In this document: piece by piece, positions 55,179 through 58,696 of the stretch | Numbering within the stretch: the stretch's first letter is position 1 | Layout: each line of letters begins with the position of its first letter | DNA from: Methylomonas sp. | GTDB taxonomy: Bacteria; Pseudomonadota; Gammaproteobacteria; Methylococcales; Methylomonadaceae | Direction of reading: 5' to 3' | Assembly: GCA_026989395.1 (NCBI GenBank) | Contig: JALSJK010000100.1 | Location: 1-62,215 of the forward strand | DNA length: 62,215 nucleotides | Program-made: the position numbers and the translations under genes | The notes under the pieces: generated by a model | The model's input: only the letters and a program-made list of their open reading frames with translations | The model's database searches: none | Told to the model about the DNA's origin: nothing

Positions 55179-55775
55179 TTAACCAACATTCCTGTGACGT
55201 AACGGACTCTTTCTTGGAAAATGGCTGCACAGAAATTCCATCTGATCACTTAAAATCTTACGCCCTTGCAAAAACACATATTCTGCCCGGTTAGGAACAA
55301 AAGGAATTGCAATTAATTGCATATTGGCCTGCTCAGGCGTTCTGCCTGCCTTGTAGTTATTGCATCGTTTGCAAGCGGTCGCAACATTATTCCAGGTATC
55401 TTGGCCACCCATGCTCACAGGAATAATATGATCTCTTGACAACAAACTCCGACGAAAATATTCACCACAATACAAACAAATATAATTATCCCTTTTGAAT
55501 AAAGCATGATTATTCAACGGAGGAATATAATGACGCGTTTTTTTTGATTTTTGATGGTGATTGAATGTCGCGATAATCGAATTAATCTCTAATTTGCTTT
55601 GCATGCCGGACAAAGCATTATAGCCACCATGAATAGTATAAAGGTGGTTCCCAAGCGAATAAGCCACTTGGTCTAAATGATATAATTTAACCGCTTCTTG
55701 AAAATCCACCCAACCGAGAGGCATTCCGGAAACATCGGTTCTTAAAACGAGTCTACTTAGTGATTCCATAATCAT
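55179..55775 (-). CDS. HNH endonuclease-family protein
   Basis: The protein has 198 residues. The HNH/McrA core reads CLYCGEYFRRSLLSRDHIIPVSMGGQDTWNNVATACKRCN in successive motifs: a CxxC pair, the DHIIP catalytic His, N in TWNN, and a second CxxC. The N-terminal 90 residues (RLVLRTDVSGMPLGWVDFQEAV) recur in a proteobacterial family of unknown role. It is convergent with the methyltransferase gene, 14 bases apart. A start at 55769 is also possible. Confidence 0.85.
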   Translation of the reverse strand: MIMESLSRLVLRTDVSGMPLGWVDFQEAVKLYHLDQVAYSLGNHLYTIHGGYNALSGMQSKLEINSIIATFNHHQKSKKTRHYIPPLNNHALFKRDNYICLYCGEYFRRSLLSRDHIIPVSMGGQDTWNNVATACKRCNNYKAGRTPEQANMQLIAIPFVPNRAEYVFLQGRKILSDQMEFLCSHFPRKSPLRHRNVG

Positions 55776-56002
55776 TATTTTTCTTACCAGAAGCCAAACA
55801 ATATTTCCAACTTACACACAACTTAAAATATTAAAAACAAAAATGTGACACAGTTTGCAACAATTAAATCCAAGTTTTTTTTGACTATTTATAACACATT
55901 GAAATTAATAAAAAAACACCATTTGCTCTAAAAGCAGCCTATTTAACAAAACTGTAATAAAAACCGTCATTAAGCGATACTAGCAAGACTAAATCCACAG
56001 AG

Positions 56003-56011
56003 TTATCCACA
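56003..56011 (+). promoter_or_regulatory. DnaA box (first copy)
   Basis: TTATCCACA is a perfect match to the strong DnaA consensus (TTATNCACA). It lies in the first repeat block. Confidence 0.65.
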
Positions 56012-56192
56012 GATTTTGTGGGCAACTTGAATTATTTATACCGATGAATAACTTGGCTGCTATTTATACGATGAATATGAAAAATATGATCTAATTTTTA
56101 AATTTCATTTTAAGCATTGTTATTTTTCATTTTTTAGCAAAAAGTAAAATTCAATGGAAATTATCAGCCGTTTTTAACCATTAAAAATTGAC

Positions 56193-56201
56193 TTATTCAC
56201 A
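56193..56201 (+). promoter_or_regulatory. DnaA box (middle)
   Basis: TTATTCACA matches TTATNCACA. It lies between the two repeat blocks within the most AT-rich part. Confidence 0.5.
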
Positions 56202-56383
56202 ATTTAAAATTAAGAATTTCATTTTGTGAACCCGTAAGCAAAAATAAAAATACCAAAATTCGTAAAAAATCATAACTATTTGAATAATAATACATTTACT
56301 CATTAGCTTTAAAACTGAGCAATTTAACAAAACACCAGTAAACACTATGCATCAGGCAATAAAACAAGACCTAATCCACAGAG

Positions 56384-56392
56384 TTATCCACA
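56384..56392 (+). promoter_or_regulatory. DnaA box (second copy)
   Basis: A second perfect TTATCCACA, in the same local context as the first (AATCCACAGAG before it), 72 bases before the priA start. Confidence 0.65.
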
Positions 56393-56464
56393 GCTTTTGT
56401 GAACAACTCAAATTATGCCTGATTAATAATCACTTAGCCCAAATAGGTGTAATTTAGTTTAAAA

Positions 56465-58696
56465 ATGACCAATAATTTGCCTGTTGACAAGATGCTGATT
56501 TTTCGGATTGCCCTGGCTGTGCCACTTACCCGTTTGTTTGACTATTTACCACCAAACAATAAAGAAAATTCGCAAGCAACAATAGGTGCCAGAGTTCGGG
56601 TTCCTTTTGGCAGCGGAGAAAAAATTGGTATTTTGGTGGAAATAACCGATACCACAACATTCAAAATAGAAAAACTGAAAAATATTAAAGAGATTCTTGA
56701 TCAAACTCCACTACTGAATGAAATAGATTTAAAGCTATTACACTGGGCATCCAGTTACTACCACTACCCGATTGGTGAAGTGATGATGAGTGCATTCCCC
56801 GCGGTCTTAAGAACGGGAAAACCTGCAAAGCTAAACCACGAGTCATATTACGAGCTAACCGAAACCGGGAAAACACTTGACTCAAAACTTATTAAAAGAG
56901 CCAAAAAACAACAAGCCCTGATCGACTTGTTTAAGAACAGCCCGTTAGCGCTCTCTACAACCCAAATTTCATTCCAGATTGAAAACTGGCAAGCACCACT
57001 CAAAAAAATCCTGGAAAAGCAATGGATAAAAGAAACTGAACCGATAAAGGCTACACATTCGACACCTCAACAGATCTTGTTGTCATCAACATTTAATGCC
57101 AACCTTGAACAACGGAAGGCAATTGATAGTGTCAGCGAAAATCTGGGTCAATTCAAGGTTTTTTTACTGGAAGGCGTTACGGGTAGCGGTAAAACCGAAG
57201 TTTATATGCAGATCATTCAGCAAGTGCTGAAAGACGGCAAACAAGTCCTGGTGCTATTGCCTGAAATTACACTAACTCCCCAGCTAGAAAATCGCTTTCG
57301 TAAACGTTTTGCTGTACCCGTTGCAATTTTCCACTCAAAACTCAGTAACACACAACGCTTTGAAGCCTGGTTAAAAATGCAGCAAGGAGAAACTTCGATT
57401 TTACTCGGTACCCGATCAGCACTCTTTACTCCGATGCCGCAGCCTGGATTAATAATTCTTGACGAAGAACATGACAGTTCTTTTAAACAACAAGAGGGTT
57501 TCAGGTTTTCCGCTCGGGACGTTGCAATCGTTCGTGGAAAAATGCTTGATATCCCTGTAATTTTAGGCTCAGCCACTCCCTCGCTGGAAAGTTTTCATAA
57601 CGCCATCAGAAAACGCTATCACCATCTTAAATTATCCAAAAGAGCGGGAAATGCAACCAAACCGGTGATTCAACTACTGGACATCCGAAACAAAAAAATG
57701 CAAGAGGGGTTTTCCGAGCAGTTATTGGCCCAAATAACTGAAACCCTGGACAAACGCGAGCAGGTTTTAATTTTTCTTAACCGACGTGGTTATGCTCCCG
57801 TCCTGATGTGTCACAGCTGTGGCTGGATTGCTCGCTGTCGCCACTGCGATGCCAATCTGGTCGTACATTTCAATGAAAACAAACTGCGTTGTCATCATTG
57901 CGGCCAGCAACAAACACTTTCCCGCCAATGCCACTCTTGTCAACAAAATGAATTAACGCCAATTGGCCTGGGTACTGAAAGAATCGAACAGGCCTTGCAG
58001 GAATTTTTCCCCAATTATAAAACCATTAGACTAGACCGGGATACCACTCAACGTAAAAACCAACTTGAAGAGCAATTGCAAGCCATTAACTCCGGGCAGG
58101 CAGAAATTATTTTAGGCACCCAAATGCTGGCAAAAGGGCATCATTTTCCAAACGTCACTTTAGTCGCCATGCTGGACGTTGATAGTGGATTATTCGGGAT
58201 TGATTTTCATGCCCCGGAAAAACTGGCGCAAATGATTATACAGGTCTCAGGCAGAGCCGGGCGGGCCGAGAAACCAGGGAAAGTTGTATTGCAAACACGG
58301 AAACCAGATCACCCTTTATTGCTAACCCTGATTCATCAAGACTACAGTCATTTTGCCCGTTCAGCACTTGCAGAAAGGCAAGCGGCACAACTCCCTCCTT
58401 TCAGTTATCAAGCGTTATTTCGGGTTCTGGCAATGGACAAACAAACGCCTGTCGAGTTTTTACAAAAAATATCAGATTTTCTAAAACCTGCTGGCAACAA
58501 GATCCAGATACTTGGTCCAGCCCCGGCACCGATGGAAAAACGCGCTGGACGTTTTCATTATCAATTACTTATACAAACCACTGTTCGTTCTGATCTACAT
58601 GATTTGCTTGATCGATTGATGCCAGAAATTGAAACCATGAAACTGGCAAAAAAGGTTCGCTGGTCGCTGGATGTAGACCCAATAGATTTGTACTAA
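56465..58696 (+). CDS. priA: Primosomal helicase PriA
   Basis: The protein has 743 residues. The N-terminal 3'-DNA-binding domain (IALAVPLTRLFDYLPP) is followed by the helicase: Walker A GVTGSGKTEVY, DEEH, and GRAGRAEKPG. The zinc region (CHSCGWIARCRHC, CHHCGQQ, CHSCQQ) is complete. PriA restarts stalled replication forks. The ribosome binding site is weak. DnaA-box repeats lie directly upstream, which could tie its expression to replication. Confidence 0.95.
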   Translation: MTNNLPVDKMLIFRIALAVPLTRLFDYLPPNNKENSQATIGARVRVPFGSGEKIGILVEITDTTTFKIEKLKNIKEILDQTPLLNEIDLKLLHWASSYYHYPIGEVMMSAFPAVLRTGKPAKLNHESYYELTETGKTLDSKLIKRAKKQQALIDLFKNSPLALSTTQISFQIENWQAPLKKILEKQWIKETEPIKATHSTPQQILLSSTFNANLEQRKAIDSVSENLGQFKVFLLEGVTGSGKTEVYMQIIQQVLKDGKQVLVLLPEITLTPQLENRFRKRFAVPVAIFHSKLSNTQRFEAWLKMQQGETSILLGTRSALFTPMPQPGLIILDEEHDSSFKQQEGFRFSARDVAIVRGKMLDIPVILGSATPSLESFHNAIRKRYHHLKLSKRAGNATKPVIQLLDIRNKKMQEGFSEQLLAQITETLDKREQVLIFLNRRGYAPVLMCHSCGWIARCRHCDANLVVHFNENKLRCHHCGQQQTLSRQCHSCQQNELTPIGLGTERIEQALQEFFPNYKTIRLDRDTTQRKNQLEEQLQAINSGQAEIILGTQMLAKGHHFPNVTLVAMLDVDSGLFGIDFHAPEKLAQMIIQVSGRAGRAEKPGKVVLQTRKPDHPLLLTLIHQDYSHFARSALAERQAAQLPPFSYQALFRVLAMDKQTPVEFLQKISDFLKPAGNKIQILGPAPAPMEKRAGRFHYQLLIQTTVRSDLHDLLDRLMPEIETMKLAKKVRWSLDVDPIDLY

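Follow-up and report, generated by a model that had tools for sequence, protein, structure and literature searches.

The gap upstream of priA in Methylomonas sp. is a tandem duplication (381 bp apart) of an approximately 214-bp module, composed of a distal DnaA box, an IHF-like site and a core of three DnaA boxes. Judged from the sequence and arrangement of these elements, the gap is probably a duplicated DARS-type site (DnaA-reactivating sequence) located beside the gene of the replication restart helicase. The window, i.e., the whole analyzed stretch of 62,215 nucleotides, is contig C100 of a 3.27-Mb genome assembled in 182 contigs. A preliminary description of this DNA had proposed a DnaA-linked, duplicated site that is unexpected beside priA, and the core repeats and their conservation in relatives support this proposal. 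The description had recognized the box pairs, but it had missed the inverted box I, the IHF site and the match to DARS.

The gap (55776-56464; 689 bases) separates an HNH-endonuclease gene, its left neighbor (55179-55775, minus strand), from priA (56465..58696, plus strand). The closest named loci of the PriA protein belong mostly to methanotrophs of the Methylococcales (Methylobacter, Methylomonas, Methyloglobulus and mussel symbionts). As had been stated earlier, the gap is devoid of genes: the only open reading frame (ORF) of at least 50 aa lying wholly inside it is one of 50 aa without support. Terminators are absent from the gap or at chance level, and sigma-70 promoter-like sites in the gap are also at chance level (5 found, 4.3 expected). 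The HNH part of the left neighbor weakly resembles IscB and Cas9d models, with scores below the cut-offs. Relatives of this gene adjoin DARS-type cores in two genomes, G002 (82%) and G020 (68%), in the latter case on a contig without a priA match.

The box TTATCCACA is present in the gap at 56003-56011 and 56384-56392, and a third box, TTATTCACA, at 56193-56201, all exactly where the preliminary description had placed them. The direct repeats that contain the two perfect boxes are spaced by 381 bases and match over 52 nt at 87% and 45 nt at 71%, which bears out the reported duplication. The window has 7 occurrences of TTATNCACA, where 3.27 are expected; a count of 7 was reached in 3 of 100 shuffled sequences. 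Three of the seven fall within the gap; in the whole genome, TTATCCACA is found 46 times and its backwards pattern 21 times. Each repeat consists of box III, a 3-bp spacer, box II (TTATCCACA), a 5-bp spacer and an inverted box I. When the three boxes were scored against TT[A/T]TNCACA (maximum 27), the two gap copies were the best cores of the window, with 25 and 23 of 27, and the next best place reached 20.

In copy 1, the core (55991..56025, plus strand; 23 of 27) is composed of box III (55991-55999), box II (56003-56011) and inverted box I (56017-56025). The core of copy 2 (56372..56406, plus strand; 25 of 27), with box III at 56372-56380, box II at 56384-56392 and inverted box I at 56398-56406, ends 58 bp before priA. 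Each core is preceded on its own strand by two more elements, an IHF-like site (-99) and another DnaA box (-179). In copy 1 these are TAACACATTGAAA (55892..55904, plus strand), with one mismatch to the pattern YAANNNNTTGATW, and TTACACACA (55812..55820, plus strand; 8 of 9 positions); in copy 2 they are TAACTATTTGAAT (56273..56285, plus strand), also with one mismatch, and TTATTCACA (56193..56201, plus strand). The "third box" of the preliminary description is therefore real, but it is the distal box of copy 2, a role that had gone unrecognized. The IHF pattern, for which one mismatch at most was allowed, is the consensus TAAnnnnTTGATW, taken from the accessible part of PMC8682772, with Y as the first base. 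Such matches are common in the AT-rich window (173 found, 128 expected), and since each of the two sites carries one mismatch, it is their position that speaks for them. An exact Fis consensus is found in neither window copy; among relatives, it is enriched at -66/-65 (16 of 52 named priA cores). In Methylomonadaceae-like loci (L223-L301) a conserved AATAAAAACCG stretch lies approximately 40 to 30 bp before the core and is kept in copy 1 of the window, and ACTTAGC follows the core in the same loci. The genome carries another full module away from priA (contig C159:1840-2045).

A loose core pattern, in which both gaps were left free from 0 to 14 (225 combinations), was run on 41 related genomes. 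The spacing was exactly (3,5) in 103 of the 116 matches, a number that includes tandem copies (one genome, G008, accounts for 7 entries), and several of the other matches were overlapping readings of the same place. At least one (3,5) core was present in 36 of the 41 genomes, and the backwards control of the loose pattern gave 2 matches in the same set. In nine regions of E. coli (115 kb), a score of at least 23 of 27 was obtained only at DARS1 (25) and DARS2 (24); two other places scored 22, and none of the oriC, datA, nrdA, purH, dnaA, polA and priA regions reached 23.

The flanking elements recur together with the core. Of 52 distinct named priA cores, 47 have an IHF site at -97 to -99 (counted from the core start), 39 have a distal DnaA box (8 or 9 of 9 positions, same strand) at -184 to -171, and 36 have both, so that one or both elements are absent from 16. 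Control windows shifted by 30-60 bp contained 0-2 IHF sites and 0-4 distal boxes. G002, a genome of the same genus, has a box at -179 but no IHF match at its core nearest priA, together with a decayed second copy that scores 22. Of 370 class genomes, 61 matched a strict full-module pattern (71 listed matches), and the backwards control matched none. For 30 loci of this search plus two own modules, the distal box lies at -175 to -180 in 29 of 32 cases and the IHF site at -98 or -99 in 28 of 32.

The boxes are conserved in relatives. By score, 42 of 63 genomes and 55 of 74 named loci have a core upstream of priA and on the same strand; the opposite strand carries none in the former set and one in the latter. 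The strict core lies within 1 kb upstream of priA in 20 of the 41 genomes, and class loci outside these genomes have a core at priA in 16 of 26 cases; the 41-genome, class and named sets overlap. The 63-genome set corresponds to 65 rows minus G010 and G022, counted twice and both negative; it leaves out L114 and L118 (no priA by tblastn), L060 (129 bp of upstream sequence only), and L196 and L220 (repeats of G030 and G027, respectively). The named PriA loci were retrieved by an alignment query, a single-protein query having matched nothing, and 74 of 80 were used, the other 6 being without upstream sequence. The core at priA is not universal: it is lacking in 21 of the 63 genomes and at 19 of the 74 named loci, some of them family members, and E. 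coli priA has no core (best score 18 of 27).

The arrangement at priA raises the question of a DnaA/IHF-controlled priA promoter, in which DnaA bound to the core would block or assist transcription and so tie restart capacity to the initiation cycle. All 21 strict cores upstream of priA in the 41 genomes are on its strand, as are all 22 full modules found 64-275 bp upstream of the gene. These 22 come from 45 full modules with a listed priA place: 47 of the 71 listed matches were joined, 2 of them without a listed place, while the remaining 24 belong to genomes without a listed priA place and were left out. Moreover, among the Methylomonadaceae-like loci the core often ends exactly 58 bp before priA (23 of 73 distinct rows), and the gene downstream of E. 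coli DARS1, uvrB, is reportedly repressed by DnaA (PMC11317965, accessible part). The fixed strand fits DARS function, a promoter role or plain descent. Against a promoter role, the core-to-priA distance ranges from 34 to 295 bp, the promoter scan of the gap is at chance level, and an inverted box I at 5 bp would not be needed. Control of a priA promoter, as suggested in the preliminary description, is thus unlikely to be the main explanation; the fixed strand and the frequent 58-bp distance leave it as a possible second role.

Cores located away from priA bear on the same question. The 41 genomes contain 81 of them, 50 with an IHF site and 32 with both an IHF site and a distal box. The next gene is co-directional with 32 of the core clusters and convergent with 30; 5 of 72 clusters lie inside an ORF of at least 100 aa, and 5 have no downstream ORF in the available sequence. 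This lack of gene direction favors a site acting on DnaA, i.e., a reactivating site, over a mere promoter element. The neighbors of these cores are gcvH/dgkA/pfkB-type genes in up to 6 genomes and hrpA in 5, the rest being scattered. Similarly, the neighbors of 20 non-priA full-module loci of the class mostly differ (DctM, HerA and RsmA twice each, rpmE once). Larger arrays were also observed: four cores 322 bp apart, approximately 3 kb beyond the priA end (G008, contig C176; L178), and a tandem array of three cores 394-404 bp apart (G004, contig C26; L176).

AT-rich DNA with DnaA boxes and IHF sites would also suit a chromosomal origin, or a secondary one, as had been considered earlier. GC skew was sampled (20 kb per 250 or 120 kb) in two relatives with long contigs, the genome of the window being in 182 contigs. 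The skew of G011 is negative in the stretch sampled at 3.27-3.29 Mb and positive in that at 3.52 Mb, with dnaA (3.397 Mb) between them, whereas priA (3.232 Mb) is placed between two negative-skew stretches. For G029, the sign change was placed at 0.74-0.84 Mb, with priA at 1.155 Mb. In the latter genome, dnaA is located at the start of contig C1, away from the skew switch, so the origin and dnaA seem to be separate. E. coli oriC, in turn, shows no core. An origin was rejected on the skew and the position of dnaA in the two relatives, and we regard this reading as highly improbable. The preliminary description had named a conventional origin elsewhere, together with unconserved boxes, as the outcome that would speak against its proposal; the origin does lie elsewhere in the two relatives, whereas conservation of the boxes is strong.

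For the DARS-type site, a mechanism can be proposed. Genes for both subunits of IHF and for Hda, the protein that generates ADP-DnaA, are present in the genome, while a Fis candidate scores 92.4, below the NCBIfam cut-off of 99. According to the accessible literature on E. coli, ADP-DnaA molecules on boxes I and II meet head to head and lose ADP. From the shared architecture we infer DnaA-reactivating activity for the module: ADP-DnaA would bind boxes I and II in a head-to-head arrangement and release ADP, and apo-DnaA would then depart and take up ATP. Two further steps are our own suggestion. IHF, bound approximately midway, may fold the DNA and thereby bring DnaA at the distal box into contact with DnaA at the core; this folding would make the site switchable, with IHF deciding when it is active. 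The tandem duplication would double the dose. Occupation of copy 2 may also influence priA transcription, since this copy ends 58 bp before the gene.

DARS were characterized in E. coli, at the uvrB and mutH loci. A module recognizable by the fixed positions of its DnaA and IHF sites would allow sequence-based identification of DARS across Gammaproteobacteria, and it offers a general, testable layout for comparison with the Fis-dependent DARS2 of E. coli. The naturally duplicated, tripled and quadrupled copies constitute dose variants. The location also raises the question of whether recharging of the initiator is tied to the gene that restarts broken forks. DARS as such are already known; the accessible parts of the literature searched, a scope that sets aside the first DARS paper of 2009, contain neither a DARS at priA nor the box-IHF-core layout, and both appear to be new within that scope.

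Among known systems, the E. coli DARS resemble the window module most directly in their cores: those of DARS1 and DARS2 have the same box orientation and the same gaps (3 and 5) as the window cores, in agreement with the reported common spacing of the two sites and the orientation of box I opposite to boxes II and III (PMC5742627, accessible text). DARS1/DARS2-like sequences are said to be conserved in many proteobacteria (PMC10380432), and DARS-like sequences have been described at uvrB and mutH in Vibrio cholerae (PMC6090056), as far as the accessible text of both papers goes. The window module is at priA, not at uvrB or mutH, and thus does not occupy the orthologous DARS1 or DARS2 locus. 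DARS1, at the uvrB locus, shares the core (25 of 27) and, like the window module, is intergenic and upstream of a DNA-repair gene. Unlike the window module, it has no IHF-consensus site with at most one mismatch near the core.

The layout of the window module is also reminiscent of datA, in which DnaA boxes flank an IHF site (layout as given in the accessible parts of the papers). This suggests a DnaA titration or inactivation site, another of the readings raised in the preliminary description. The order of box, IHF site and box recalls datA, and the E. coli site contains a GAG-spaced pair that includes TTATCCACA. However, datA scores only 21 of 27, below the core score, because the head-to-head box I is missing, whereas the window and its relatives keep this box at exactly 5 bp. 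Identity with datA was rejected on this architecture, and a datA-like function is quite improbable, E. coli datA and oriC both missing the core score. The DnaA double boxes of the E. coli ChIP-seq regulon (PMC11317965, accessible part) share with the window the direct pair spaced by 3 bp, but the nrdA, purH, dnaA and polA regions are without the full core; priA is absent from the main text of that paper.

The likeness of the DARS-type module to DARS2 extends beyond the core. Both have an IHF-consensus site on the box III side and a consensus DnaA box approximately 180 bp out, although DARS2 is beside mutH and the window module beside priA. The DARS2 IHF site is at -87 on the core strand and that of the window at -99 (-97 to -99 among the named priA cores), a difference of 10-12 bp or approximately one helical turn; the far box of DARS2, probably box V, is inverted at -185, while the distal box of the window is direct at -179. 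On its box III side, DARS2 carries a pair of IHF matches separated by 3 bp, as described for IBS1-2, and when IBS1-2 was shifted from the core by 10 bp, DARS2 was moderately active, whereas after a 5-bp shift it was only partly active (PMC4245941, accessible text). The Fis sites of DARS2 (FBS2-3) are essential according to the same source, in contrast to the window copies with no exact Fis consensus. DARS2 also contains a weaker second core (22 of 27; IHF match at -97) at a distance of 316 bp from the main one, possibly a decayed tandem copy. Tentatively, and with the balance somewhat against it, the priA-linked module might be an old, general gammaproteobacterial DARS, composed of a distal DnaA box, an IHF bend and a head-to-head core, that couples DnaA recharging to the priA locus. 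It would then have been lost at E. coli priA, and DARS2 would be a rearranged relative that gained Fis control and whose decayed second core is a trace of a tandem duplication like that of the window.
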